From positions 1-64,000 of the forward strand of contig NZ_LLWE01000040.1 of NCBI RefSeq assembly GCF_001562055.1: 64,000 nucleotides of DNA. The letters run 5' to 3'. This document shows, one piece after another, positions 48,144 through 64,000 of this stretch. The notes beneath the pieces were generated by a model. That model did not search any database. It was not told the origin of the DNA and saw only the letters and a program-made list of their open reading frames with translations. A program made the position numbers and the translations under genes. Origin of the DNA: Polycladidibacter stylochi. Lineage in GTDB: Bacteria; Pseudomonadota; Alphaproteobacteria; Rhizobiales; Stappiaceae. Numbering within the stretch: the first letter of the stretch is position 1; every line of letters starts with the position of its first letter.

Positions 48144-48167
48144 GTGTCCCTCCCTTTCACAATACAG

Positions 48168-48800
48168 TTAGTTGTTTTTTTTCAATGAGCTCAGATCGTG
48201 CTCAACGAAAGCTCGCATTAGGCTGGCACAGGCGGTATAAAAGCCGTCTGGATCATTGGCGTTGCAATCGGCAACAAAGTCACCGAGCCATGGGGTCAGG
48301 TATTTTTCTATGAAATCGACCTGTTGAGGTCTTGTTTCTTGTTGCGACGCGAGCGTCGATAAAAAGCCGAGCATGAGGGCCAGATGGTCCTCTGGCTCGG
48401 AAAAGTTTTCATTGGCAACCAGGTTGTATTGCCGGTAATAATCTGCAATTTCGCTAACGCATGGATGGCTCAGAGTTTGCCGCCCACTCATGTAGTAGGA
48501 AGCGTAAGGTTGAGCCGCACTCATGCGACTTCCCACTAAAAATAGCTGAGCAAAAGCAACGCGCAGATCCATAACATCATCGGCATGATCCTCTCTCTGA
48601 TCCAGATTGAAAATCACCCAGCGCACGGGCTCTTTAAATTGCTCCTGACAGGCCAGATCGTCTAAAAACTGACGAATATCACCTGAACGTATTGAATCAA
48701 TCGTTGCCTGATCCAGCTCGCTAGCAAATAGTCTTGAAAGGAACCGGTAAGCGACTGCCCGGAACAAGTCCTCATCCTGGTGGCGGTTACTGTCTTGCAT
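48168..48800 (-). CDS. torD: TorA-specific chaperone TorD
   Basis: The 210-residue all-helical protein of the TorD/DmsD family binds the twin-arginine signal and apo-TorA so that the molybdenum cofactor is inserted before export. Family features are RFLSRLFASELD near the start, SYYMSGRQTLSHPCVSEIADYYRQ and EPEDHLALMLGFLSTLA, the last being the E-P-D-H signature of TorD-like chaperones. The ATG at 48800 has GGAG at proper distance; one five codons upstream lacks a site. It lies between torC and torA with gaps of 24 and 55 bp. Confidence 0.92.
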   Translation of the reverse strand: MQDSNRHQDEDLFRAVAYRFLSRLFASELDQATIDSIRSGDIRQFLDDLACQEQFKEPVRWVIFNLDQREDHADDVMDLRVAFAQLFLVGSRMSAAQPYASYYMSGRQTLSHPCVSEIADYYRQYNLVANENFSEPEDHLALMLGFLSTLASQQETRPQQVDFIEKYLTPWLGDFVADCNANDPDGFYTACASLMRAFVEHDLSSLKKNN

Positions 48801-48855
48801 TGCTCTTAGCTCCATTCATTGGAAAACGCTATTTTGTTTAGGGGAGAGGGGTGCG

Positions 48856-50013
48856 CTAGTGCGCACCACCTGTATCTGCTGCATGTAACTGGAGATACTT
48901 TTGAACCAACCGGATCTCATCTTTTGTCAGTGCCGTGTAACGGGTCATTGATTTCAGAACGCCGGCCCACTGGTTCGCCTTGAAGTGACCTGGGTCAGGA
49001 GGGCTGTGACATACAGAGCAAGAGCTTTGGTATAGTTCGCTTGTATATCCCCAGAGCTCTTCAGGGTCTTCAAGCATGTTTTTCTTGTCCATAAAGCCGG
49101 TAATGCTGACTTCTTTCCAAGTTTGGCCAGTGTCTTCATTCACAACGCTCTTCACGGTCTCAGTCTGAGAGATGGCATTTTTCCCAAGTGCTGCACTGAA
49201 AATACGCTGTCCCATTTGTGCGTAAATCACTTTTTCCGCACCCTCTTGGCTCCAGCCAGCGACTTTCACTTTGATTTTGTCGCCTTCTTCACCAATGCTT
49301 TCAATCGTAGTGCCGGCAAGAACACGTGCCGCAGGCCGCTTGTCATCTGCTCCTAAATACAATCCGCCATTTTCTAACAATGTCAGCGCAGGCTTGGTGT
49401 AATCCGCAGCAGCAGCATCATCTACGAGCTTTTGATAGGCTTGACGTGTGGCAGCGGACATATCAGGCATTTCGTGCGCAATACCTTTGTGACAATCAAT
49501 ACAGGTACTGCCATCGCCCAGTGCTTTCTTATGCATTTTTTGCGCTTTTGGACGTTGCTGATCAATGTCCATTGTAGTGAAAGCATGACAGCTGCGACAA
49601 GTAGATGAATCGCTCGCTTCCATCCGTGCCCATACGCGCTTGGCAAGTTCTAGGCGATGATCTTCAAATTTTTCTTTCGTATCAATTGTGCCGAGTATTG
49701 TGTGATAGACATCATTCGCTGCGCCGATTTTCCGGAGCATTTTAGGGAAAAATTCTTTTGGCACATGGCAGTCGGAACATTCAGCCCGAACACCTGATGT
49801 ATTTCTGTAGTGAATGGTCTTCTTGTACTCTTCCAGATTGTGACTCATTTCATGACAACTGGTACAGAATTCAAGTTGGTTGGTAGCTTCTAACGCCGTA
49901 TGAAAGGCACCACTAAAGATGATTCCGCCCAAACCACCAACACATAAGATAATAATAAAGGGATAAGGCCGAATACCCCAAAGGTAACCCCATAATCTTC
50001 TAATCATATTCAT
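48856..50013 (-). CDS. torC: Pentahaem c-type cytochrome TorC
   Basis: The 385-residue inner-membrane cytochrome oxidises quinol and passes electrons to TorA. One N-terminal membrane anchor (PYPFIIILCVGGLGGIIFSGAF) is followed by four NapC/NirT-type haem sites at residues 50-54 (CTSCH), 79-83 (CSDCH), 139-143 (CRSCH) and 171-175 (CIDCH), and a fifth in the C-terminal domain (CSVCH, about 335). Five CxxCH sites and the extra C-terminal domain distinguish TorC/DorC from tetrahaem NapC. The second ATG (50007) is better spaced from AGGGG and may be the true start. First gene of the operon. Confidence 0.95.
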   Translation of the reverse strand: MNMIRRLWGYLWGIRPYPFIIILCVGGLGGIIFSGAFHTALEATNQLEFCTSCHEMSHNLEEYKKTIHYRNTSGVRAECSDCHVPKEFFPKMLRKIGAANDVYHTILGTIDTKEKFEDHRLELAKRVWARMEASDSSTCRSCHAFTTMDIDQQRPKAQKMHKKALGDGSTCIDCHKGIAHEMPDMSAATRQAYQKLVDDAAAADYTKPALTLLENGGLYLGADDKRPAARVLAGTTIESIGEEGDKIKVKVAGWSQEGAEKVIYAQMGQRIFSAALGKNAISQTETVKSVVNEDTGQTWKEVSITGFMDKKNMLEDPEELWGYTSELYQSSCSVCHSPPDPGHFKANQWAGVLKSMTRYTALTKDEIRLVQKYLQLHAADTGGAH

Positions 50014-50021
50014 ATCCCCTG

Positions 50022-50057
50022 GCGACTAATGCGAGTTAAGCAATACAGTTTAGTCGC
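50022..50057. promoter_or_regulatory. Inverted repeat in the torC/torT divergent promoter
   Basis: GCGACTAA (50022-50029) and TTAGTCGC (50050-50057) are perfect inverted repeats 20 bp apart, in the 106-bp gap between the torC and torT starts. TorR is encoded nearby, so this is a candidate TorR or other regulator site. It does not match the E. coli tor box CTGTTCATAT. As RNA it could also be a hairpin in the torC leader. Confidence 0.45.
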
Positions 50058-50119
50058 ATTCCAAATTCTGTTATTTCTGATAATCTATCACTGGAATGTA
50101 CGAGATATTTAGGCCAAAC

Positions 50120-51202
50120 ATGAACACAATGATAACTAATGTAATAAGATGTAATACACTAAAATCATTGTGCTTTTTACTTATAAGTACTTACCCCTGC
50201 GCTGCCAAAACCTGGTCTATACGGCAATGGGACCAAATGCTTGATTACACCTCAAATTCAACAATTACCCAATACACACCCCTCGCCCACGCTCAAAAAG
50301 CGTGGAAGATATGCGCATTGTATCCGCACCTGAAAGACAGCTATTGGTTATCCGTAAACTACGGAATGGTGGACCAAGCAAAAATTTTAGGGGTAGAGCT
50401 GATGGTTCATGAAGCTGGTGGCTACTACCAAGTAAAAAAACAAGCAGAACAATTAGAACAATGTGCAAAAAGCAAACCAGATGCCATTGTTATTGGAACC
50501 GTGACATTTAATAGGCATCAAGAACTTATTGATAAGATCTCCAAGCAAATTCCTGTCTTTGGTATTGTAAATCGCATATCTCCTCAAGGAATAAGCGCTA
50601 TGACAGGTGTTGATTGGAATATGATGGGGAAAATGACAGGAAAATTTCTTCAAAGCCTTCATCCCAAAGGCTCCCCGCAAGTGAAAATAGCATGGTTCCC
50701 TGGCGCGGGAAAAGTCGGAATCTCCTCAACAAAACTATCTGCTTTTAAGCAAGAAATTATGCCCTCATCTGCCCGGCTTTCAGTGTCGCGATATGGCGAT
50801 ACCGGCAAGCTGGAGCAACTTACCTTAATTGAAGATGTATTAGATAATTCAACTAATTATGATTACATAGTAGGTACTGGCGTCACAGCGGAGGCAGCAG
50901 TAAGTGCACTACGAGCAAGACATCTTACAAATAAAATCAAAGTTATTTCCGGCTATTTTACCCATAGCGTTTATAGGGGCATACTGCGGGGAAAAATTCT
51001 CGCCTCACCCTCAGACCAACCAGCCTTGCAAGGTAGAATGTCCATTGATCAAGTTGTTCGCTTCTTAGAAAACAAGAGATATGTCAAACACATGGCACCT
51101 GAAATCATTATGATAACGAGCCAGAATATATCAACATTTAACAAGCGAGACTCCTTATCGCCAACATCATTCAAGCCAACATTTCATGTTGCCGCCCCAT
51201 AA
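50120..51202 (+). CDS. torT: Periplasmic TMAO-binding sensor protein TorT
   Basis: The 360-residue type I periplasmic-binding-fold protein binds TMAO and presents it to the sensor TorS. The signal peptide is LKSLCFLLISTYPCAA. TorT features include AWKICALYPHLKDSYWLSVNYGMVDQAKILGV, ALYPHLKDSYW being highly characteristic, MVHEAGGYYQVKKQAEQLEQC and WFPGAGKVG. The start at 50120 follows AGG; an ATG eight codons earlier is possible. It is divergent from torC and 30 bp before torR. Confidence 0.92.
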   Translation: MNTMITNVIRCNTLKSLCFLLISTYPCAAKTWSIRQWDQMLDYTSNSTITQYTPLAHAQKAWKICALYPHLKDSYWLSVNYGMVDQAKILGVELMVHEAGGYYQVKKQAEQLEQCAKSKPDAIVIGTVTFNRHQELIDKISKQIPVFGIVNRISPQGISAMTGVDWNMMGKMTGKFLQSLHPKGSPQVKIAWFPGAGKVGISSTKLSAFKQEIMPSSARLSVSRYGDTGKLEQLTLIEDVLDNSTNYDYIVGTGVTAEAAVSALRARHLTNKIKVISGYFTHSVYRGILRGKILASPSDQPALQGRMSIDQVVRFLENKRYVKHMAPEIIMITSQNISTFNKRDSLSPTSFKPTFHVAAP

Positions 51203-51232
51203 ACATACCAAGCAAAAACAGGTCGCAAACCT

Positions 51233-51958
51233 ATGGCAAATCGTAAAACCCGCATACTAGCAGTAGAAGATGAGCTCGTTTCTCGAAAAAAGCTGGTTGC
51301 TTACCTGCAAAAAGAAAACTTTGAGGTTTTTGAAGCCGAAGACGGCGCTAGCATGCGCAAAATTATGGACGAATATCCGGTAGATTTAGTACTCCTGGAT
51401 ATCAATTTACCCGATGGAGATGGAATTGATCTGGCGCGGCAACTACGTGCCAATTCAAATATTGGCATTATACTTGTGACAGGGCGTACGGACGAAGTTG
51501 ACCGCATAATCGGCATTGAAGTTGGCGCTGATGATTACATAACAAAGCCGTACAATCCCCGTGAATTGCTCGCTCGGATTAAAGCCCTAATCCGGCGGTT
51601 CCCAACCGAGCAAGAAAAGAAAACACAACAAACGGGTGGCGGAATACTTAAGTTTGGCGACTGGCAATTAGATAAGCTACGTCGGCAACTACACGGCACG
51701 AATGGCACAACAATAAAACTCACCAGAGCAGAGTTCGAGCTCCTACAAACTTTTGTAACGCGCCCCGGAATTGTACTAAGCAGAGACACATTGATGGATC
51801 AAATCTATCACCGCCATTGGGCCCCGAGTGATCGCTCAATTGATGTTCTGGTAGGTCGCTTGAGAAAAATCCTTGAAGCAGACCCTAAACAACCAGCACT
51901 CATTGTTACAGCTCACGGAGAAGGCTATGTGTTTGCTGAAAAAGTCTCTTCCATGTAA
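51233..51958 (+). CDS. torR: Response regulator TorR
   Basis: The 241-residue OmpR/PhoB-class regulator has a receiver (residues about 5-118) with acidic pair ED, phosphoacceptor Asp in [15 protein letters not shown] and Lys in [10 protein letters not shown], then a winged helix (about 140-235, [32 protein letters not shown]). It would be phosphorylated by TorS and activate torCDA. Its 3' end overlaps torS, encoded on the other strand, by 34 bp. Confidence 0.93.
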
Positions 51959-54840
51959 AGCGTGAGTATCTGTGAGGCTCGTTCAACTTCTTGGCGGAAA
52001 TGCCCATAGTTTCCGCCTTTCTCAATTTCAAATGCCTTCGATTGAAGTCTTTTTAAGCCTACCGTGCCAGCGGCACTCTTCATTGCATGGGCAAGTTTAA
52101 CCCTGTCATCTTGTGTCTCGGCAGCTTCAAAGCGTGATAATAAACGGCCAATTTCTGTTAGAAAATCTCTAAGGATACTCTCAACGCAAGCATCTCCAAG
52201 TTCTTCACGGTCAATAGCTAGAATATTCCTATCAAGCTCTTCAAAGCGATTTTCTTTGCATCCCAAAACCTTTGGGTTAGGGGCAGCAACTGTTTTTCCC
52301 TGTAAAACCCTATGGATCACATCCACAAGGTCTTGTGGTTCAAAAGGTTTCGCTAAATAACCGTTCATTCCCCTTTCAAGGCAGCGCCGCACCTCTTCAC
52401 CCATTGCATGCGCCGTTAAAGCCACAATAGGAATACTGGCAATAGCCTTATCCTCATGAGAGCGGATCAAACTAGTGGCATCCAAACCATCCATCTCGGG
52501 CATACTAATATCCATCAAGATCAGGTCTGGCTTCTCGCGCACAGCGCTTTCAACGGCCTCAACACCATTTTCCGCAATGATTACGGCATGTCCTTGCTTT
52601 TGCAAAAGCGCTTTCGCAACAAGTCGGTTCGTTTCAATATCTTCTGCAAGCAAGATTTTGAGTGAACCAATGCTTTGCTCTATTGCTGGCGTATATTCTT
52701 TCTTGCCACTCTGGCAGGTTATAAAGGGCAAAGTGAACCAAAAAACACTTCCCTGACCTTCATGGGAAGTAAAGCCGATGTTACCTCCCATACCTTTAAC
52801 CAGACGGTTACAAATGGCCAAACCTAAACCGGTCCCACCATAGCGCCTTGAGGTTGAGTTTTCTGCTTGTGCAAAGGGGTTAAACAGCAATGCCTGCTTT
52901 TCATCGGGAATGCCTATACCACTATCATGAATTTCAAATCGTACCTCGGCCTGATTTTCCTTGTCATTTGTCTGCGATGTGACCTTCAAGCTGACAAAAC
53001 CACTTTCAGTAAACTTAATGGCATTACCCAGCAAATTCGAAAGGACCTGTTGTAAACGTGCAGGGTCTCCGAGGCTGCAGTCTGGTACATTTTCATCTAT
53101 CTGCCCGATAAGCTCCAACTCTTTCTCTTCGGCTTGAGAGCGAAACAAATCTAGCTGTCGCTGAATCACTTGAGGTAATGAGAAGCCAATACTCTCATAG
53201 GCAAGGCGACCTGCTTCAATCTTGGAATAATCAAGTATATCATTCAAAATTCGCAGTAACACATGACCTGAACTGGCAATGGTTGAAACATACTTTTCCT
53301 GCTCTTCATTAAGAGCAGTTGTCTCCAAAAGGTGGGCTGTTCCAAGAACCCCATTCATAGGTGTTCGTATTTCATGCGACATGGTCGCTAGAAAAACTGA
53401 CTTGGCACGATTTGCCGCCTCAGCCTCAATACGCGCCTGCTCTAGACGAACCGTCTCGTTTTCTAGCTGTGCATTCGCAAGCAGTAGCTTCTCTGTCCTC
53501 TCCTCAACCAAACGTTCCAGCTTGTTTTGATAGCCCTTGAGCTTATAGTTTGCTTGAATTTGCTGTTGTTCAAGCCGCCTACGCTCTAGCGCAGTTTGGC
53601 GGAAAACCTCAATCGTTCGCGCCATTGTGCCCAGCTCGTCATTTGTATTGTCACGCACAGAAGCGTGCAGATGACCTTTCGCGAGCGTAAGCATACTCGC
53701 ATGCAGTTTGCTTAACCGGCGCAGCAAGTTCCCTTGCACATAAAACACCATGATCAACGCGGAAATAATCAAAGAAAACAATGCGTAAAAAACCAAGGCA
53801 CTTTGTCCCTGCCGCACGGTCTGATCCGATTTAAAGATCGAATGCTGAATGGTACTATCAGCAAACTGCGAAACTTTGGCAACGCTGCTGGTTAGCGCCT
53901 CTCCCAGCAAACGGCTAGCATTCGTTTTTTCGGTAACAGATTGATTCAATGCAATTATTTGTCCACGTAAGACAAATAGGTTTTCAGGGGAGTCCGCCTC
54001 ACTGTGTTTGCGCAACTCTTCTAAATATCTTTGTGCTCTATCACGCCGGTACGGATCATCCGCATAGCGCAAGCGACGCTCCATGATGACCCAAGAGCGT
54101 GCAAAGTTTCTTTGCATCTCGATGATTGCTGCCGCGTTATCCTCTTGTGAAAGCGAATTTAACAGCTGCCCACCAAGGCTTGCGCGCAAGCGAAGATCGC
54201 TCATCAATTCAAGTTGGTAAAGATTTTCTTCTGTTATTGTATCAAGCGACTCAAACGCCTCTTCTTTTCGTGAAGGCTTATCGATCAAATCATAAACGTG
54301 CGAAAGCCCTGCAACAAGGCGGGTGTCCGCGTTGGAAACGAGCGTTTTTGTCAAAATCAGTGTTTCTTTAGCGGCTTTTAAGGCTTTAGCAAGTTCTCGT
54401 TTAAACAAGCGTTGTTTCGCGATGCGTTGGCGAAGTAACTCAACCTGTTCATTAACCGATTGAAACAGGGCCACCATTGCGCTCTCAGCATCTTGCAACA
54501 CAAACGGGTCTGTTCCCAATAGCCTCAGGTCAGTAAGTAATTGCTCAATTTCCTGTTTGCCAATCGCAAGGCTGGCAGACTGGTTTTCCAAAGTATCAAG
54601 CGTCGTCGCTTGTGCTAGCATAGGTAGTTGCGAAATAACTTGGGAGCTTAATCGGCTAATCTCATGTGCACTAACCAAGGCAGGTAGTGCTTCACCTGTC
54701 ACTTTATCCTGTGTTTTTTGGACCTGCGAAAAACCAAGCCAACCGGTAACAGCACCCATTAAAGCAAAACTGGTGACAGCTAAAAAAGCAAATAATAATC
54801 GGCCTCTAATGCCAAGTGATCGCGTACCCTGAGAATCCAT
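51925..54840 (-). CDS. torS: Hybrid sensor histidine kinase TorS
   Basis: The 971-residue tripartite kinase senses TMAO-loaded TorT and phosphorylates TorR. Domains in order: membrane helix (about 13-33), long helical periplasmic sensor (to about 345), second membrane helix, HAMP, coiled coil, HisKA with [11 protein letters not shown], HATPase with [14 protein letters not shown], receiver with [13 protein letters not shown], and a C-terminal Hpt domain with [14 protein letters not shown]. This layout is that of E. coli TorS (914 residues). It is convergent with torR, sharing 34 bp at the ends. Confidence 0.94.
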
Positions 54841-55553
54841 ATGCTTCTTCTTTTCATTTCCTCTATGACATTACAGTGAAACGCTTTTAAATGTCTTCTT
54901 ATAACAGAAGAGAACTCTCCTAACCCACCATCCAAGTCACAGTGACATATTGCCACAACGCCCCTTAATTCGGTTTTCAAGAGCTCCCCGCCTAAGGAAT
55001 CTGATTAAATAAGCCATTGATTCTGTCATTTACGCATCGTCTTCACAGAACTGCTCAAACAATAAGATAGAGCTATTTATTTGGTCAGTACTATTGACCT
55101 TTTATGAATAATCGAATTGTACATACTATTTATTTTTACGACCAAGTAAATCTTATAAATCCAATGTATTTAAACTCAAAACAAAGAATAAATAAACAAT
55201 CAACTTCACAGCCATGCATTGCTTTTTCCAAATGTTGTCTATTTTTCAACATTCTCCTTCCTATTTTTACATAGTTCAAAAAATATACCACACAAACTCT
55301 AGCGTTTTCATTGAAATTAATTTCGCCAAGCGCATAAACAAGCAACAATCTCTATTAATTATTATCATTATTCTTGACTTGGAAGAATATTCCTTTTACC
55401 CAGAAATCAAAACAAATTGCTATGGATAACTCACCATGCGTGCAATTGCCTAAATTTTAGGCTGGCACACATTTAACGCAGAAAACATTTTCATGCGACA
55501 CATATAACAGTGTGAGCTCTGCCTTAGCATTCAATTAGAACCGGAGGCGTGTA
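54841..55553. other. AT-rich intergenic region upstream of gltB
   Basis: About 710 bp with no gene I can support. Overlapping short ORFs on both strands (55136-55429) are AT-driven and lack ribosome sites. The last 110 bp should hold the gltB promoter and contain the palindrome at 55448-55462. Confidence 0.5.
55448..55462 (+). promoter_or_regulatory. Palindrome upstream of gltB, possible operator
   Basis: GCCTAAATTTTAGGC is a perfect 7-bp inverted repeat around one central base, 92 bp before the gltB start. Size and symmetry suit a dimeric repressor. No known regulator consensus is matched with confidence. Confidence 0.4.
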
Positions 55554-58500
55554 TTGGCACAGGATCGGAAGCAGTTCGGACTTTACGATCACAGCGAAGA
55601 TAAAAGTAGCTGTGGTGTTGGTTTTATCACCCGCAAGTCTGGTGAGCAGACCCATGATGTTCTCGTAAAAGGGCACGAGGCCCTTTGCACTATTCCCCAC
55701 AGGGGGGGGATGAGCGCGGAAGGTGTCGGCGACGGCGCTGGCGTGAACATCGATATTTCTGAAAGCTTCTTCCGAAAACTCACGGGTGTAACAACGTTAA
55801 AATACGGTGAGTTCGGTGTAGGCAACTTCTTCCTGCCAGAAAATAACGACAACTGGCAAAGTGCCGACGCGTTGATCACCGCAGCCATTGAGGAGAACGG
55901 CTGTAAAGTGATCCTCTCGCGCATGGTCGAGGTTGACAATTCGGTTATTCGTCCAGCTGCTATCAAACACATGTTGCCAATCCGCCAGGTGGTTTTCACC
56001 AAACCTGAAGGACAGGACGCCAAAGCGTTTGATCGGACTATCAACGAAATCATGTTGAAGATCGAATCTCAAGCCTACGAAGGTGAAACGCTGAAAGGCT
56101 TGTATCCGCTCTCGCTTTCTGCTCGCACGCAAGTCTATAAAGGCCGTCTGAACTCAGACGAGATCATCCCGTATTTTAAAGACCTCATGGATGAGGATCA
56201 CAAGATCCACACCATGTTCTTTCATACCCGTTTTTCAACCAATACAGAGCCGCAGTCTTCAATGGCGCAGCCGTTCCGCTATATGGCCCACAACGGCGAA
56301 CTCAATACCGATAAAAAGAACCGCCTGTCCGAGGCTGCCATTGCCCAGATGCGTCATAACCGCATCTATACCCCGCATGGTCAGTCCGATAGTGCACGCC
56401 TTGATCAAACGCTACAGCGCCGCCTGATTGAAGACGACCTCGACCTCATAACAGCTGTTGTTGCCATGATGCCGCCCGCGTGGGAAAACGATTCTCGCCT
56501 TTCTGAAGATGTGCGGGTTATGCTGGAATACTTCTCTCTTTACGAAGAGAAGAACGATGGCCCAGCAGCTCTAATCTTCGGTGATGGTAGTGTTGTTGGT
56601 GCCCGCCTCGACCGCCTTGGCCTACGCCCACTACGTTCTGTCGAGACTGGAGATTACCTCTGTGTCATGTCCGAGGCTGGTCAAATCGACTTCCCGGCAG
56701 AAGAGATTTCCCGCCGCGGCCGTATCGAGGCCGGTGGTATGCTCTACTTCGATCATCGCACAGGCAAAAGCTACACCAGCCACGAAGCTCTCGAAATGTT
56801 GGCCAGCCAACATGACTATAAAGCTCTCTTGGAAGAGGCACGCGTTAACCTCAAAGATTTACCTGCACAAGCTGCATCAGTTGAGCTGGCAGATGGTTTC
56901 AGTGACGTTCAACGCGCTGTTGCCTACTCGCTCAATCAGGAAAGCTATAAGTTCCTGATGGACCCAATGATGCAAACAGGCTCAGAGAAGATCTCCGCCA
57001 TGGGTTATGGCGTTGCGATCAACGCCCTATCCGACCAAGAAGGCGGCATGGCTAAATTCTTCTCACAGCGTTTTGCTCAGGTAACAAACCCACCACTAGA
57101 TTCTCTGCGTGAAGCCGATGGTATGACCCTGCGCGTAGCATTGGGTGCCAAACCACACTTCAACAAAGAAAAACAGCGCCAGATCGTTGTGAACAGCCCG
57201 GTATTAAACGCCAGCGAGCTCAACACCATCCGTGCGCAAGATCAGGTGCCGGTTTCGGAAGTTGCCATCCTTTATCAAACTGCTACGAGTGAATGTGCTA
57301 AAGAGCAGCAACAAATATTAGTGAGTGCTGTAGAAAGCGTTTGTGATCAGATTGAAACCGCTGCCCGTGAAAAGGGCGGTATCATCATTCTCTCTGACGC
57401 CAAAGTAGACGCTCAAAACGCACCACTACCCCTAATTCTAATCGCAGCAGCAGCCAACCAGCGCCTTATTGAAAAAGGCTTACGCTTTAAAGCCTCCCTT
57501 ATTGCTGAAAGCGGCCAAATTGCATCTTCGCACCAGGTTGCCACTGCACTCGGTTTCGGCATTTCTGCAATGATGCCGCTTTCTGTTATCGCCCGTGCCA
57601 ATGAAATGGCCGCAGGCAATGCAGAAGAAGCCAAAGCCAATGTGGCGCGCTTTGTTAAAGCCGCCAATAAATCCCTGATGAAAACGATGGGTAAGGTTGG
57701 CCTATGTACTGCTGAAAGCTATATCGGCGGCGAATTCTTCGAGCCAAACTTCTTGGATACGAATGAAAGTGTCCTCGCGCGTTACTTCCCGAATATGAAG
57801 GCAACCGTAGGTGGCGTCGACTTTGCAGCCATTGCCCTGTCCAATGCCCAATGGCACCAGCGTGCCTGTGAAATCAAGGATGCCAAGGAAATCCCGCTTC
57901 TCGGTCTGTTTAAAGAACGTTCAGAAGGTGCGGGCCACTCTTACGGTACCACCGCTGTACGCGGCTTTGTCGAGATGACAGAGGAAGAAATCAAGCTTAA
58001 AGGCTCTGCAGATAAAGACAGTAAACTGGACGAGGAAGACCTTTCCCTTCTGACATTAGGCCGTTTGAAAGATGCCTATGATAGCGGTGCAGAAGCCTAT
58101 CGCAAAACCAGCTTCGAACGCCGCACGCCCGAAGAAATTGACGCCTTCAAAATTACCAAGTCTTACCGCGAATTCTCCCAGTCACTGGCACAAGAACGTG
58201 CCAAGCGTCCGGCCGCTTTGCGCGATGTGCTTTCTTTCCCGGCAGATGTAAACTGGGCAATGACGGCCAAGGAATTTACCGAGGAGTTATTCAGTCACGA
58301 TTTGGTGGGCAACAGCTCGTTCCTCGTGCGTGGTATCGATTGCGATCAAAACGAAGATGGCAGCTTTACCCTACGCTTGTGTGGCCGCGCCAAAGGTCGT
58401 CCGGCGCAGATCAATGGTGCCCGCCTTGATGCGCTCAAAGACGCCATAACCGAAAAGTTTGCCGATCAGTTGGTCGAGCTCAAGAAGGTAGAAAACACGA

Positions 58501-61058
58501 TTACCTTTAAGGCCAGTGATCAGGCACTCTACTACTTCACCAATTTACAAAACGCCAACCCGAGCCTATCCGTTACCGATGTGCAGCCAGCACACGAAGT
58601 AACCGCAACACTGGCCTCCGGCGCTATGAGTCACGGTGCATTGGTTGCCCCAGCGCACGAAGCCGTTGCTCACGGCACCAACATGGCGGGTGCGTTCTCG
58701 AACTCGGGTGAAGGTGGCGAGCACTATTCACGCTATGGCACCATCCGTTCCAGCCGCATCAAACAGCTGGCCTCTGGCCGCTTCGGCGTATGGACCGGTT
58801 ATCTTGCCGATCCGACACTGGAAGAGCTGGAAATTAAAATTGCTCAAGGTGCGAAACCGGGTGAAGGTGGTCAGCTACCAGGGCCGAAAGTGACTGTTGA
58901 AATCGCTGCTGCCCGTGGTGGTACACCGGGTGTGGAGCTCATCAGCCCCCCACCGCACCACGACACCTACTCCATTGAAGATTTGGCGCAGCTCATCCAC
59001 GATGCCAAGGCCGCCCGTGTGCGCGTTATTGTCAAGCTGGTATCTTCAGAAGGCATTGGTACCATCGCCGTTGGCGTTGCCAAAGCAGGCGCAGACGTCA
59101 TCAACATTGCCGGTAATACAGGTGGTACAGGTGCTGCTGCCGTCACCAGCTTGAAAAACACTGGTCGCGCTGCTGAAATCGGTCTGGCCGAAGTACACCA
59201 GGCCCTATGTGCCAACGGTTTGCGTGACAAGGTAATCTTGCGCTGCTCAGGTGCACACCAAGCCGGTTCGGATGTTGTGAAATCGGCTCTTCTCGGTGGC
59301 GACAGCTTCGAATTCGGCACCACCGCACTGATGATGATCAAATGTGTGATGGCGAAAAACTGTAACATCAAATGCCCGGCCGGTATCACAACCAACGCCG
59401 AGGTATTTGAAGGTGACCCGCGCGCACTAGCGCAGTACCTCATCAACATCGCCCACGAAGTGCGCGAAATTCTCGCCCGCCTTGGCTTCAAGTCCTTGCG
59501 TGAAGCGCGGGGCCGCTCCGATTACTTGCATCTGGTTGCCCACGAGCGTTCTATCGGTCAGTTGGACCTACGCCAAATGCTCACCTGCGTGGAAGAGGTC
59601 AAAGTCGACAAGCCTGTCTACTTGGAAGCCAACTTTGATGTTGACGATGAATTACTGAAAGAATTCCGTAAGCAGGTCATCCAGCGCCAGCAAACCGAAG
59701 CTGTGCTCTCCAAAGGCATCAAGCTCAACAACCGCAACAAAACCGTTGGCGGCCAGCTGGCAATCGATATCGAACGCACGCTGCAATACGAGCTTTCCGA
59801 CAAGCAGGCAAACTGCCTGCCAATGGTCTATACAGACGATCGTGGCCGCCGCCTGATCAAACCGGAGACGCTTACCGTCAACACCACCGGCGCAGCAGGC
59901 CAAAGCTACGCGGCTTTCTGTAACTCCGGCATGATCTTCCGCCACGTTGGCACCTGTAACGACGGCGTCGGCAAAGGCGCCTCGGGCGGTAATATTGCCA
60001 TCGTTTCTCCCGGCGGCGGTGACGAAGAAAACGTCCTTATCGGGAACTTCGCCCTGTTTGGTGCCTCCGGTTCCGCCCTTTATGTCGAGGGCGGTGCAGG
60101 CGATCGCTTCGGCGTCCGCAACTCCGGCGCTTCCGCTGTTGTTGAAGGTGTAGGCGACTTCTGCGGCGAATACATGACCAATGGTGCGATTTTGAACCTT
60201 GGCGATTTCGGCAAGGGCTTTTGTAATGGTATGTCCGGCGGCGTAGCCTACCAGTACGATCCCTACGATCAGCTGGAGAAACTCTACAGCGCCGACAGTG
60301 TGAAACTGCACCGCTTGTCCGATGACAACGAGCGCGCGGCAATTCACCGCCTTGCTGTGAAATCACTGCTTGAACGCCATGTAAAATTCACAGGCTCCAA
60401 GAAGGCCCAGTTCCTGCTCGACAACTTCGCAACCGAAGTTGCAAACTTCCGCTTTGCCACCCCGCTGGCACTGGAAACCTACCAGAACTACGAGGCAATC
60501 TTAAAAGCCAAGAGCCGTAAGGAGCTGGTGGAAGAGCTGTCGCAAGCACTCGTTGCCCATCAGACACGTAAGTTCAAGGAAGCTTACCGCGATGGCAAGC
60601 CAATAGCGGGCGGGGCAATTCCAGGTTATGGAGAAACTGATACGGGCCTAATGCACACACTCATCAACAATTACACAGTCTGGCACTGTGCTGAGGATGT
60701 AGTAAAGTCGCGCTATAAAAAGGCAGAGGATCTCGATCAAACGACGATCACGTCTGGTGTGCGTAAACTGATCCTCACCGAGGACTTCGCACTGAACCAA
60801 AAACTGGCAGCATATGCAAGAAAAGCACTGGAAAGTTTTGGTGACGAAGAGCTGGCTGTCATGATCTCCGACAAGCGAATGAAAGACTATAAAACCGCAC
60901 TTTCAAACCGCAATGTCCGCCTCATGGATAGCATCGGCACTTACGGCTGGATCTTGTTACAAGACCGCCAGAATCGTAAGGCCATGGGCGAAATCCCAGA
61001 CTTCGAAATGCTGTTTGCCAAGGCAAGCTCCACGGAATTGGTGAAGCAGATGGTGTGA
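55554..61058 (+). CDS. gltB: Glutamate synthase large subunit, long variant
   Basis: The 1834-residue GltB-type protein should make glutamate from glutamine and 2-oxoglutarate. The N-terminal glutamine amidotransferase domain has its nucleophile at Cys20 after a 19-residue propeptide (SSCGVGF), with HRGGMSAEG and GDGAG. The FMN domain runs from about residue 1020 (LASGAMSHGALV, QGAKPGEGGQLPGPKV, SPPPHHDTYSIEDL, GNTGGTGAAAVTS). The iron-sulphur cysteines are 1264, 1270 and 1274. A GXGXG domain follows (about 1490-1640). The total is about 350 residues longer than usual, with extra sequence before the FMN domain and at the C-terminus. TTG start, with GGAGG six bases before it. The next gene encodes a diflavin reductase, not GltD. 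Confidence 0.88.
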   Translation: MAQDRKQFGLYDHSEDKSSCGVGFITRKSGEQTHDVLVKGHEALCTIPHRGGMSAEGVGDGAGVNIDISESFFRKLTGVTTLKYGEFGVGNFFLPENNDNWQSADALITAAIEENGCKVILSRMVEVDNSVIRPAAIKHMLPIRQVVFTKPEGQDAKAFDRTINEIMLKIESQAYEGETLKGLYPLSLSARTQVYKGRLNSDEIIPYFKDLMDEDHKIHTMFFHTRFSTNTEPQSSMAQPFRYMAHNGELNTDKKNRLSEAAIAQMRHNRIYTPHGQSDSARLDQTLQRRLIEDDLDLITAVVAMMPPAWENDSRLSEDVRVMLEYFSLYEEKNDGPAALIFGDGSVVGARLDRLGLRPLRSVETGDYLCVMSEAGQIDFPAEEISRRGRIEAGGMLYFDHRTGKSYTSHEALEMLASQHDYKALLEEARVNLKDLPAQAASVELADGFSDVQRAVAYSLNQESYKFLMDPMMQTGSEKISAMGYGVAINALSDQEGGMAKFFSQRFAQVTNPPLDSLREADGMTLRVALGAKPHFNKEKQRQIVVNSPVLNASELNTIRAQDQVPVSEVAILYQTATSECAKEQQQILVSAVESVCDQIETAAREKGGIIILSDAKVDAQNAPLPLILIAAAANQRLIEKGLRFKASLIAESGQIASSHQVATALGFGISAMMPLSVIARANEMAAGNAEEAKANVARFVKAANKSLMKTMGKVGLCTAESYIGGEFFEPNFLDTNESVLARYFPNMKATVGGVDFAAIALSNAQWHQRACEIKDAKEIPLLGLFKERSEGAGHSYGTTAVRGFVEMTEEEIKLKGSADKDSKLDEEDLSLLTLGRLKDAYDSGAEAYRKTSFERRTPEEIDAFKITKSYREFSQSLAQERAKRPAALRDVLSFPADVNWAMTAKEFTEELFSHDLVGNSSFLVRGIDCDQNEDGSFTLRLCGRAKGRPAQINGARLDALKDAITEKFADQLVELKKVENTITFKASDQALYYFTNLQNANPSLSVTDVQPAHEVTATLASGAMSHGALVAPAHEAVAHGTNMAGAFSNSGEGGEHYSRYGTIRSSRIKQLASGRFGVWTGYLADPTLEELEIKIAQGAKPGEGGQLPGPKVTVEIAAARGGTPGVELISPPPHHDTYSIEDLAQLIHDAKAARVRVIVKLVSSEGIGTIAVGVAKAGADVINIAGNTGGTGAAAVTSLKNTGRAAEIGLAEVHQALCANGLRDKVILRCSGAHQAGSDVVKSALLGGDSFEFGTTALMMIKCVMAKNCNIKCPAGITTNAEVFEGDPRALAQYLINIAHEVREILARLGFKSLREARGRSDYLHLVAHERSIGQLDLRQMLTCVEEVKVDKPVYLEANFDVDDELLKEFRKQVIQRQQTEAVLSKGIKLNNRNKTVGGQLAIDIERTLQYELSDKQANCLPMVYTDDRGRRLIKPETLTVNTTGAAGQSYAAFCNSGMIFRHVGTCNDGVGKGASGGNIAIVSPGGGDEENVLIGNFALFGASGSALYVEGGAGDRFGVRNSGASAVVEGVGDFCGEYMTNGAILNLGDFGKGFCNGMSGGVAYQYDPYDQLEKLYSADSVKLHRLSDDNERAAIHRLAVKSLLERHVKFTGSKKAQFLLDNFATEVANFRFATPLALETYQNYEAILKAKSRKELVEELSQALVAHQTRKFKEAYRDGKPIAGGAIPGYGETDTGLMHTLINNYTVWHCAEDVVKSRYKKAEDLDQTTITSGVRKLILTEDFALNQKLAAYARKALESFGDEELAVMISDKRMKDYKTALSNRNVRLMDSIGTYGWILLQDRQNRKAMGEIPDFEMLFAKASSTELVKQMV

Positions 61059-61114
61059 GCTCGCAAAGAGCTCCCACCCATCCTTCAAGACAGATCGAGA
61101 CACGGTAACGACCT

Positions 61115-62869
61115 ATGAAACTTCCCTATATTCCAGAAAACGCCCCGTTTTCACCTGAGCAAAAAAACTGGCTCGCAGGCTTTTTCGCCGGCCTTCACAC
61201 CCAGATGGCAGTAAATGACGATGCAGTACAAGAAGGCACTGCAGCACTAAATGTCAATGTTTTATACGGCACCCAAACCGGCAACTCTGAAATGGTGGCC
61301 GAAGAAATTGGCGAAGCCCTCACCGGCGCTGGCATGAGCCCAACAGTGGCATGTCTGGATGACATCGCGCTAGAAGACTTCGCCGCTATGGAACAGGTGC
61401 TCATTGTCATCTCCACCTATGGTGAAGGCGAAATGCCAGACAACGCCCAACTGTTCTGGGATGCCCTTAAAGCCACTGACGCCCCACGCGTTGAAGCCAT
61501 GCGCTTTGCCGTGCTGGCACTTGGTGACACCGGTTACGATGGCTTCTGTGAAGCGGGTAAACAGATGGACCTGCGCTTGGAGCAGTTGGGTGCAAAACGC
61601 CTCTACCCGCGCAAAGACTGTGATGTCGATTTTGAAGCACCAGCTGAAGAGTGGACAAACGGTGTTCTTGAAAAACTGGGCGAACTCAAAGGCACTGGCA
61701 ATGGCGCTGCCCCTACTACGACAGCTGGAACAGCCAAAAAAACCGAGAAATCCAAGTGGTCCCGCAAGAACCCGTATGACGCACCGGTTGATGTTAACCG
61801 CCTGCTCTCTGGCGAGGGCTCAGCCAAGGAAATTCGCCATTACGAAATCGGCCTCGGTGAAGGTGCCCCAACCTATGAAGCCGGTGATGCCCTTGGGGTT
61901 ATTCCAACCAATGATCCGCAATTGGTAGAAGATTGGGCCAAGCGCCTTGATGTTTCTTTAGAGGCTGGTGTAAGTGGCCATGACCGCCCATTGGGTGAGC
62001 TGTTGTTCAGCCACTTCGAAATCTCCACTCCCTCGAACGATTTTGTAAAAGCAGTTGCTGCGAAAGCAGGCGACGATCACCTTTCCCATATCGTTGAGCA
62101 CGGCGACAAAGAAGCCATGGAGAGCTTCCTCTGGTCCAAGGACGCCCTGGATCTGCTACTACTTTACCCGCAAGTAGAGTTCTCTCTGGATGAAATCACC
62201 GGCCTTCTCAAGCCATTGCAACACCGCGCTTACTCGATCTCTTCCAGCTCGAAGTTCGCGACTGACAGCGTACACCTTACCATTGCAACCGTACGCTATG
62301 AAAGCCATGGCCGTAAGCATGGCGGTGTTGCCTCCTCGTTCTTGGCAGATCGTGTGATCGAGAACGGCACAGCAAAAATCTTTGTGGCACCAAACAAATC
62401 GTTCCGCGTACCGCAAAACAACGATGTGCCAATGATCATGGTGGGTCCAGGAACCGGTATTGCCCCGTTCCGCGCCTTCTTACAGGAGCGTCAGGCAATT
62501 GGTGCCAAAGGCATGAACTGGCTGTTCTTCGGCGATCAACATGCCGCCAGCGACTTTATCTACCAAGATGAAATCGAAACCATGCAGCAAAACGGCGTGC
62601 TGTCCCGCCTTGATCTGGCGTTCTCGCGCGATCAGGCTGAAAAAATCTATGTTCAGACCCGCATGATGGAAAACTCCAAGGACCTGTTCGCAGCGTTGGA
62701 AGAAGGCGGTCACTTCTATGTATGCGGTGATGCCAGTCGCATGGCCAAAGATGTCGACAAAGCCCTGCACAGCGTCATAGCAAAAGAAGCCGGTCTCAGC
62801 GAAGACGGCGCTACCGACTATGTCAACAAGCTGAAAAAAGAAAAGCGCTATTTGCGCGATGTCTACTAA
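61115..62869 (+). CDS. CysJ-like NADPH diflavin reductase beside gltB
   Basis: The 584-residue protein resembles the flavoprotein subunit of sulfite reductase. An FMN-binding flavodoxin domain (about residues 48-192: YGTQTGNSEMVAEEIGE, STYGEGEMPDNA) is joined by a Thr/Ala/Lys linker to a ferredoxin-reductase-type FAD domain (HRAYSISSS, HGGVASSFLADR) and an NADPH domain (GPGTGIAPFRAF, WLFFGDQH, YVCGDASRMAKDV). It ends RYLRDVY, like CysJ. A short N-terminal region (residues 1-45) is extra. It starts 56 bp after gltB and ends at a strong terminator; no cysI gene is in the window. I infer it donates NADPH electrons to the GltB-like protein. Confidence 0.88.
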   Translation: MKLPYIPENAPFSPEQKNWLAGFFAGLHTQMAVNDDAVQEGTAALNVNVLYGTQTGNSEMVAEEIGEALTGAGMSPTVACLDDIALEDFAAMEQVLIVISTYGEGEMPDNAQLFWDALKATDAPRVEAMRFAVLALGDTGYDGFCEAGKQMDLRLEQLGAKRLYPRKDCDVDFEAPAEEWTNGVLEKLGELKGTGNGAAPTTTAGTAKKTEKSKWSRKNPYDAPVDVNRLLSGEGSAKEIRHYEIGLGEGAPTYEAGDALGVIPTNDPQLVEDWAKRLDVSLEAGVSGHDRPLGELLFSHFEISTPSNDFVKAVAAKAGDDHLSHIVEHGDKEAMESFLWSKDALDLLLLYPQVEFSLDEITGLLKPLQHRAYSISSSSKFATDSVHLTIATVRYESHGRKHGGVASSFLADRVIENGTAKIFVAPNKSFRVPQNNDVPMIMVGPGTGIAPFRAFLQERQAIGAKGMNWLFFGDQHAASDFIYQDEIETMQQNGVLSRLDLAFSRDQAEKIYVQTRMMENSKDLFAALEEGGHFYVCGDASRMAKDVDKALHSVIAKEAGLSEDGATDYVNKLKKEKRYLRDVY

Positions 62870-62899
62870 GCATCAAGCAAACTGCAACTAAATCTATAT

Positions 62900-62943
62900 G
62901 CCCTCTCGAGCTATTTACGAACTGTTTGAGAGGGCTTTTTTTT
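62900..62943 (+). terminator. Intrinsic terminator after the diflavin reductase gene
   Basis: GCCCTCTC (62900-62907) and GAGAGGGC (62928-62935) form a perfect eight-pair stem followed by eight T residues. The 3' arm and T-run lie inside the last codons of the convergent BatD-like gene, encoding its Lys-rich end. Confidence 0.92.
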
Positions 62944-64000
62944 GACTAAATGCATCAACTGCAACCGCGCTAATAATGAAGGCCAAGCGCCGGAAGATCG
63001 TTTGCCAGCATAAAGAGCCTGCAACATCGTCTCCACAACGCAACTCTTTCGAGCAGCGACATCACGCAACAAAGGCACCTGGAAGGCTTGCCGTTTGCAT
63101 GCGCCATAATCAAGCTGGCGATAGAACAAGCCCATTTGTTTTTCCGCTGTGAAGCCTATGAGATTTGTGTAGGGGCGGAGCTGTCTTGCAAAATACCCTG
63201 CAAGTTTTGATAGCGCCCACATGACTATTAAAACGGCAAAAACCCCCGCGACATAAAACCCAACTTTAAACCAATCGATACCGCCCGCATTCACGCGGTG
63301 GCGAACCAGTTGTTCTTCCTGCCGTTCTTTTTGTGCTGGGTTCCACCAAACCAAGCGTTCACCACCCAGGTCGTACCGTCCGGGCTTTTCAACCGAATAA
63401 ACGAGCGACTGTTGCAGCTGCGCATAACTTTCCCCTCTATAATAGTTAGAGCTTAATTGCGGCTCCGAGCGCAATAAACTTACTCCATCGGGTACATTAG
63501 CAATAAAATCCGGTATCATAACAGCGCTGGTATCATCGGCCTTTATGGTAATAACACGCTCGATTAAATCACCCCGTTGATATCTTTTATCAGCTTTCCA
63601 ACCAGACCAGTCATCATTGATAGAAACTTCTGGCGAAACCAAATAACCTTGACGAGAACCCATTTCACTGGGCTGTTGAATGATCAAGAACCGTTCTGGC
63701 AACTGCGCCTTCACAGCAACTGGCACACCGCTTTCATTAGCAATATGTGCGGTTACAACCACTTCTGGTAGCTGCAAAATACCTTGTTGCCTCGCATAAA
63801 TTTGATAGCTAAGCCATTGGGTTGCATACTGTTTTCCATTCTCTTGACTAAAGCCGTTCGCGGCACCACTTTCTTCTTGCAGTACCAATGCCCCTTCAAT
63901 ATATGGCAAGCGATAATCGAGCCCGCCCATAAAAAAAGAAGGCGTCGCCACTTGAATACGAATATTGATTTGCTGTCCGGGCGCAAACTGTTCATTAGGA
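62911..64000 (-). CDS. BatD-like membrane protein, 5' end outside window
   Basis: The frame is open to the right edge, so at least 363 residues of the C-terminal part are seen. It has beta-rich Ig-like repeats (PPEV-type LQLPEVVVTAHIANESG, GDLIERVITIKADDTSAVMIPDF), the WWNP motif near a single membrane helix (WFKVGFYVAGVFAVLIVMWALSKL), and a cytoplasmic tail ending QTVRK. This is the layout of BatD/aerotolerance proteins, which are usually encoded with MoxR, DUF58 and VWA proteins, presumably just beyond the edge. Transcribed toward the diflavin reductase gene and overlapping its terminator. Confidence 0.75.
   Translation of the reverse strand, partial: PNEQFAPGQQINIRIQVATPSFFMGGLDYRLPYIEGALVLQEESGAANGFSQENGKQYATQWLSYQIYARQQGILQLPEVVVTAHIANESGVPVAVKAQLPERFLIIQQPSEMGSRQGYLVSPEVSINDDWSGWKADKRYQRGDLIERVITIKADDTSAVMIPDFIANVPDGVSLLRSEPQLSSNYYRGESYAQLQQSLVYSVEKPGRYDLGGERLVWWNPAQKERQEEQLVRHRVNAGGIDWFKVGFYVAGVFAVLIVMWALSKLAGYFARQLRPYTNLIGFTAEKQMGLFYRQLDYGACKRQAFQVPLLRDVAARKSCVVETMLQALYAGKRSSGAWPSLLARLQLMHLVKKKPSQTVRK

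Follow-up and report, generated by a model that had tools for sequence, protein, structure and literature searches.

A likely third type of NADPH-dependent glutamate synthase, in which a long GltB protein is paired with a diflavin reductase

Glutamate synthase represents the central step of ammonia assimilation, and the locus considered here raises the question of how such an enzyme could be supplied with electrons if the GltD subunit is missing. The analysed stretch of Polycladidibacter stylochi DNA (64,000 nucleotides of contig NZ_LLWE01000040.1, below called the window) contains a gene for a long GltB-type large subunit, followed by a gene for a CysJ-type reductase that would carry electrons from NADPH (reduced nicotinamide adenine dinucleotide phosphate) via flavin adenine dinucleotide (FAD) to flavin mononucleotide (FMN). 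An initial annotation made from the sequence of the window had proposed either a new route of electron delivery to a glutamate synthase, or a GltB paralogue with another amidotransfer reaction. Four observations, namely the conserved linkage of the two genes, the absence of GltD, the occupation of the gltBD site in a group of enterobacteria and a published auxotrophy, make it highly probable that the two genes together encode an NADPH-dependent glutamate synthase belonging to a third, diflavin-dependent type. The pair consists of the following elements (aa, amino acids):

55554..61058, + strand: long gltB-type glutamate synthase large subunit, 1834 aa (open reading frame, Pfam; the sole full-length GltB of the genome)
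61115..62869, + strand: CysJ-type NADPH-FAD-FMN diflavin reductase, 584 aa (open reading frame, Pfam, TIGR01931 at 621 bits)
62900..62943, + strand: intrinsic terminator ending the pair (fold, z -5.4; it spans the stop of the convergent open reading frame 62911-63999 on the - strand)

The open reading frames and the Pfam matches agree with the initial annotation, according to which the GltB gene is followed after 56 bp, on the same strand, by a gene for a complete diflavin reductase. The single strong terminator that it placed after the pair is also seen by folding: the hairpin at 62900-62935 has a 12-bp stem and a loop of 12, is followed by eight T and has an energy of -21.4 kcal/mol, and none of 200 shuffles equals its z of -5.4. 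Our hairpin pattern scan, allowing for loops of 3-8, missed this terminator due to the loop length.

The linkage of the two genes was followed in several collections. The C-terminal 235 aa of the long GltB alone were used to scan a species-genome collection, which yielded 127 relatives, the best 80 of which were kept. In all 80 kept loci a diflavin reading frame is situated directly downstream on the same strand; the count includes four loci cut at contig ends (L096, L106, L109, L110) and two, from Pantoea genomes, where the long gltB frame is interrupted, by an assembly error or by decay (L134, L166); all further short loci of the set owe their length to contig ends. As these loci were found by the GltB tail alone, we may conclude that the pairing is not due to chance. 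The kept loci belong to Proteobacteria and Actinomycetota, and the genera with the pair are Pseudovibrio, Cohaesibacter, Shinella, Ancylobacter, Methylopila, Methylobacillus, Pantoea, Erwinia, Winslowiella, Mixta, Rhodococcus, Mycolicibacterium, Nocardia and others. Beyond the pair, the 80 loci share no neighbour family: the largest one (36/80) is the enterobacterial flank, and the remaining ones recur in at most 34 loci, mostly among relatives; this count covered reading frames of at least 90 aa, hence no small ferredoxins. Under the greedy choice of reading frames used for it, the GltB family was recorded in 76 loci and the diflavin family in 70, as reverse-strand or cut frames won elsewhere.

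The same arrangement was observed on named plasmids, where the diflavin gene lies beside the long GltB gene in nine of nine records (Shinella, n = 2; Neorhizobium; Sinorhizobium; Ketogulonicigenium, n = 4; Tsukamurella). The GltB search matched 217 plasmid records, and these nine long proteins were the only ones above 36% identity among the 40 listed, while the other 41 diflavin matches listed, of 242 records, had at most 45% identity. Where plasmid annotations are given, the GltB protein is called "glutamate synthase-related protein" or "glutamate synthase large subunit", and the diflavin protein is assigned variants of "sulfite reductase". Finally, among 385 genomes sampled evenly from the class, 64 matched the tail, all but three of them only within residues 3-69 of the 235; the full tail was found in three genomes, and in both new ones the diflavin gene adjoins it. 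In all five genomes of the window's genus that carry the long GltB the two genes are also neighbours (see below).

The partner of GltB differs between the two GltB types. Positions of PF04898 and PF14691 matches were compared by eye in 35 genome entries with the pair, representing 34 different genomes (G013 and G425 being the same record). A GltD-type (PF14691) match is present within 5 kb of all ordinary GltBs (28/28), and near none of the long GltBs (0/35). The long GltB is the sole GltB in 15 entries (14 different genomes), of which 11 entries (10 genomes) lack PF14691 entirely; the remaining four (three Cohaesibacter and one Rhodobacteraceae) have PF14691 only elsewhere in the genome. When Pantoea ananatis LMG 2665 is added to the 34 genomes, each of the 35 has one diflavin with 54-100% identity to that of the window, and many also hold more distant diflavins.

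The host genome (G000, Pseudovibrio group; 3.68 Mb, 99.98% complete) comprises a single full-length GltB, the second PF01645 match covering 42 positions in a 389-aa frame, and a single diflavin match. GltD and CysI had been described as missing from the window; this agrees with the lack of any PF14691 match in the genome, the same model matching in 9 of 14 control genomes including Escherichia coli, and with the position of the CysI-like sulfite reductase gene on another contig, beside a CysH-like gene. There is no diflavin gene in the 13.5 kb around this CysI-like gene, and the encoded protein scores best with NirA-type models (227 bits, compared with 170 and 122 for two NADPH-type models, all being below the cut-offs). 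Searches for two glutamate-dehydrogenase (GDH) families revealed an NAD-GDH-type protein of about 1600 aa and an ELFV dehydrogenase of about 390 aa, and both types are likewise present in the six relatives searched.

Five of the 16 genomes of the window's genus, including G000, carry the long GltB (62-94% identity, with almost the whole protein aligned), and the same five carry the diflavin orthologue (61-95%), adjoining the long GltB in each by coordinates. An ordinary GltB is additionally present in three of them (G012, G010, G002) and absent from G000 and G013, which are the only genomes of the 16 without PF14691. In a wider set, PF14691 was found in 38 of 41 genomes, the third one lacking it being G033 (84% complete). 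No shared site was seen when the gltBD flanks of four genus genomes were compared with the genes of the window, hence in-place replacement of gltBD is not shown for the window itself. In G010, the next large reading frame downstream of the pair encodes an IS110-type transposase (L244:4213-5148), which fits a mobile history.

The site of the pair is clearer in 36 enterobacterial loci (Pantoea, Erwinia, Winslowiella, Mixta, two Enterobacter and one further). An arcB-like gene is situated upstream of the pair in all 36 loci, and sspB and/or sspA downstream of it in 34, followed, as far as the choice of reading frames shows, by rpsI, rplM, zapE, yhcB, degQ and degS. In E. coli K-12 this same site between arcB and the ssp genes is occupied by gltBD. 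Three of the enterobacteria, P. ananatis, P. agglomerans and Erwinia persicina, have a separate true CysJ (75-77% identity to the E. coli one) together with CysI and CysH elsewhere in the genome; these second, CysJ-type diflavins are 38-40% identical to the protein of the window, as compared with 54-56% for the pair-type diflavins of Pantoea and Erwinia. Thus, a diflavin protein working with a CysI elsewhere, which the initial annotation had named as the finding that would speak against the partnership, was looked for, and in these genomes CysI has a CysJ of its own.

Genetic data are available for one of these species. According to the text of Kharchenko et al. 2025 (PMC12364357), where P. 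ananatis is called biotechnologically important, strain AJ13355 of this species has no close homologue of the E. coli glutamate synthase (GOGAT) or GDH, its putative gltB product is 64% identical to an Agrobacterium protein, knockout of gltB leads to glutamate auxotrophy (credited to Hara 2012), and expression of GDH is low in a medium rich in ammonium and glucose; the main text of that paper contains no word that begins with gltD, cysJ or sulfite reductase. The long GltB of P. ananatis LMG 2665 is 63-69% identical to the long GltBs of Shinella, Neorhizobium and Ketogulonicigenium, 60% to that of the window, and 30-42% to E. coli GltB. As these identities match both the published 64% and the lack of a close E. 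coli homologue, the gene knocked out in P. ananatis very probably is of the long type.

The long GltB has the Pfam domain order of glutamate synthases (GATase_2, Glu_syn_central, Glu_synthase, GXGXG), with additional segments:

55611..56825, + strand: glutaminase domain, aa 20-424, starting at the catalytic-type Cys20 (PF00310, 1.9e-94)
56913..57743, + strand: central domain, aa 454-730 (PF04898, 3.5e-72)
57951..58514, + strand: expanded region ahead of the FMN domain, aa ~800-987, borders approximate
58437..59489, + strand: FMN / 2-oxoglutarate domain (Pfam match), aa 962-1312 (PF01645, 1.5e-105)
59343..59375, + strand: predicted Fe-S cluster loop C1264-x5-C1270-x3-C1274 (motif comparison)
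59832..60332, + strand: GXGXG domain, aa 1427-1593 (PF01493, 2.9e-46)
60465..61055, + strand: C-terminal helical extension, aa ~1638-1834, 197 residues, a candidate docking module

Residues were compared in 85 rows (one for each of the 80 loci and five from genomes of the window's genus, those of G012 and G013 recurring as L097 and L092), or in 79 rows after removal of the six contig-cut or interrupted loci listed above. The glutaminase residues C20, R226, N247, G248, E249 and D279 are invariant in all 79 intact rows, and so are K1101, Q1107, R1121 and E1142, which correspond by alignment to the 2-oxoglutarate residues K972, Q978, R992 and E1013 of the Synechocystis enzyme. Formation of glutamate from glutamine and 2-oxoglutarate is therefore predicted for the long GltB, by its architecture and catalytic residues. 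The cluster loop has the form C-x5-C-x3-C in 85 of 85 long rows and C-x5-C-x4-C in 31 of 32 ordinary GltB loci, the remaining one having no intact motif. In the NCBIfam GltB model NF008730 the protein scores 1031 bits, under the cut-off of 1047.

Two segments distinguish the long GltB from solved glutamate synthases. The expanded region adds 146-155 residues, the unaligned span before the FMN domain being 186-220 aa in the window's protein vs 32-75 in solved chains; from aa ~892 onward it is predicted to be alpha/beta (predicted local distance difference test, pLDDT, of 66-89 in ten-residue blocks), and no Pfam family reached the gathering cut-off in aa 892-1019. The solved synthases align up to aa 1633-1637 and have 13-53 further residues there, vs 197 in the long GltB; AlphaFold2 (AF2) predicts aa 1600-1834 as all helical (mean pLDDT 87), and for this tail neither a Pfam family nor a Foldseek match in PDB better than E 0.76 was found. 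With a model of aa 780-1834, Foldseek gave seven matches at E <= 0.001, to known glutamate synthases only.

The partner protein has the domains of a complete reductase (Flavodoxin_1, FAD_binding_1, NAD_binding_1):

61259..61648, + strand: flavodoxin (FMN) domain, aa 49-178 (PF00258, 3.2e-35)
61760..62341, + strand: FAD-binding domain, aa 216-409 (PF00667, 3.3e-24)
62438..62758, + strand: NADPH-binding domain, aa 442-548, with S-R-D-x3-K-x-Y-V-Q (PF00175, 1.9e-17)

The motif [SA]R[DE]x3KxY[VI]Q of the NADPH site is present in 83 of 85 diflavin rows. The protein misses the cut-offs of both CysJ models (TIGR01931, 621 bits vs 668; NF008197, 505 vs 838), and passes NF004859, sulfite reductase subunit alpha (446.7 vs 432).

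In the GltB tree (61 rows), all 28 long GltBs are placed on one side of a branch of extreme length with a support of 100 in the Shimodaira-Hasegawa-like approximate likelihood ratio test. The other side comprises GltBs of E. coli, Azospirillum, Bacillus, Haladaptatus and Alphaproteobacteria, as well as the ferredoxin-dependent synthase (Fd-GltS) of Synechocystis, the only Fd-GltS row; the tree was built by a quick method, is unrooted and gave long-branch warnings. The pair-type diflavins group with one short mycobacterial diflavin (support 95/90). The latter is a 536-aa protein of Mycolicibacterium (G442, L254:6055-7665), whose gene has no GltB near it in the 12 kb inspected. Distances between GltBs are correlated with those between the diflavins (Mantel r 0.94, N 33, 0/2000 permutations as high), as would be expected if both genes were transferred together. 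In each of the two trees Methylobacillus falls with the Pantoea-Erwinia rows (support 84 for GltB, 88/74 for the diflavin).

The proposed mechanism is as follows. The long GltB would hydrolyse glutamine at Cys20, the ammonia would be channelled to 2-oxoglutarate at the FMN site, and the resulting iminoglutarate would be reduced to glutamate, as in other glutamate synthases. The electrons would pass from NADPH to FAD and FMN of the diflavin protein, then to the predicted Fe-S cluster and FMN of GltB, and finally to iminoglutarate; they would enter the long GltB singly at the predicted cluster, and neither ferredoxin nor GltD, which has two [4Fe-4S] clusters, would supply them. Docking of the diflavin protein is probably the task of the helical tail and the expanded region. 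We infer the direct transfer, the cluster type and the docking from the sequences, while the new route of electron delivery suggested in the initial annotation is supported by the linkage and the absence of GltD. The pair would pass from phylum to phylum as one unit and would have displaced gltBD, in the case of Pantoea, Erwinia and their relatives right at the place of gltBD. Taken as a whole, it is likely, if somewhat less so than the two-gene synthase as such, that this is a third glutamate synthase class outside all compared NADPH and ferredoxin types, where a P450-reductase-like flavoprotein feeds the synthase directly, without GltD or ferredoxin. Under this reading the class spreads across phyla as a module of two genes, and in Pantoea, Erwinia and related genera it has taken over the site of gltBD and would be the main enzyme of ammonia assimilation.

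Among the alternatives, the one that survives best is a small carrier between the two proteins, that is, a ferredoxin- or flavodoxin-dependent long GltB with electrons passing from NADPH via the diflavin protein and this carrier. Synthases of the ferredoxin type do exist (PMC8097209), and a long GltB without a GltD partner would fit such a scheme. However, the two-gene unit is the only common element of the loci among frames of at least 90 aa, and the long GltB does not group with the single Fd-GltS row. Diflavin reductases can reduce small carriers, but their FMN domain is itself a one-electron carrier, and we regard an additional one as unlikely. The second alternative is a GltB paralogue that uses another acceptor, in an amidotransfer reaction of a different kind, as the initial annotation had also considered. 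The very long branch, the altered Fe-S loop and the genomes that hold a long GltB beside an ordinary one are in line with it; vice versa, the glutamine and 2-oxoglutarate residues do not vary, the long GltB is the sole GltB of 14 different genomes and lies where gltBD would be expected in Pantoea, Erwinia and their relatives, and the gltB knockout of P. ananatis is reported to be a glutamate auxotroph (PMC12364357), so that a paralogue of this kind is not favoured and seems quite improbable. Hardly any weight is left for a diflavin protein that serves the assimilatory sulfite reductase and adjoins gltB by history only, since, its CysJ-like sequence class and the CysI-like gene and single diflavin match of the window's genome notwithstanding, the three enterobacterial genomes have a separate CysJ with CysI and CysH, the sulfite reductase of the window's genome is nearer to the NirA type and lies beside a CysH-like gene without a diflavin, and the linkage to GltB is without exception in the examined loci.

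Several observations weigh against a diflavin-dependent synthase as the general explanation. Ordinary GltB and GltD are also kept in 20 of the 35 entries, and in genomes with both systems the pair may have a special role. The linkage count covers the best 80 of the 127 relatives, leaving 47 outside it, and the linkage could partly reflect co-transfer of the pair as a unit. The pair-type diflavins are not a well-supported clade of their own (43/88 vs the short mycobacterial diflavin), and two Winslowiella loci (L129, L142) have a reading frame of about 2340 aa downstream instead of the ssp genes. The AlphaFold model of aa 780-1834 (32 rows) left the FMN barrel unmodelled, with pLDDT below 50 in much of it, hence neither the cluster site nor the docking can be judged from it. 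The type of the P. ananatis gene is drawn from LMG 2665, not from AJ13355. A gene list of Mixta mediterraneensis given in PMC10927894 includes gltD, while the Mixta genome searched by us (G444) has no PF14691 and only the long GltB; automatic pathway annotation or a strain difference are possible reasons. None of the papers seen tests the partnership between GltB and the diflavin protein. Among the open papers searched, a glutamate synthase fed by a diflavin protein is the subject of no title or abstract, by which we do not claim its absence from print. A 2021 review (PMC8097209) describes in its text synthases that have a GltD-type subunit, others linked to ferredoxin, NADH forms that are fused, and archaeal single-domain reading frames, and the word "diflavin" is absent from it.

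As for the remaining features of the window, the long gltB gene starts with TTG, with GGAGG six bases upstream. A scan with a sigma-70-type pattern gave three sites at the locus vs 6.2 in shuffles, that is, none above expectation, and no Rfam match was found over 54700-63500. Upstream, at 45684-54840, Pfam reveals a complete-looking tor-type cluster that comprises a molybdopterin reductase, a TorD-like chaperone and a NapC-type cytochrome on one strand, as well as a periplasmic binding protein, an OmpR-type regulator and a TorS-domain hybrid kinase, the 3' ends of the kinase and regulator genes overlapping by 34 bases.

If the diflavin-dependent reading is true, a glutamate synthase can dispense with the two low-potential [4Fe-4S] clusters that GltD carries, and the pair offers a natural comparison for the entry of electrons into this enzyme. 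The diflavin protein would then be the likely electron donor of the P. ananatis glutamate synthase, and the "sulfite reductase" label of the partner gene would need correcting.

Compared with GltBD, the pair has the same domain order of the large subunit, the catalytic-type Cys, and the glutaminase and 2-oxoglutarate residues, as well as NADPH as the predicted electron source and a two-gene organization with the reductase downstream; in contrast, GltD (FAD and two [4Fe-4S] clusters) is replaced by a diflavin FAD/FMN reductase, and the long GltB has an Fe-S loop shorter by one residue, about 150 extra residues, the 197-residue helical tail and a deep branch of its own. With Fd-GltS (Synechocystis 1LLW, plants) it shares the catalytic core of the large subunit and the absence of GltD, but a gene for an NADPH flavoprotein lies next door, the protein has 1834 aa vs 1520, and the tree puts Fd-GltS with the NADPH-dependent GltBs, away from the long GltB clade. 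The partner protein resembles the CysJ and cytochrome P450 reductase family, where the FMN domain delivers single electrons, in the FMN-FAD-NADPH domain order and the NADPH-site motif, whereas, unlike CysJ, it is encoded next to a glutamate synthase gene, with no CysI gene beside it. Thus, judged by its architecture and catalytic residues, the long GltB is a glutamate synthase, yet by their defining tests it belongs to neither the GltBD nor the Fd-GltS type.

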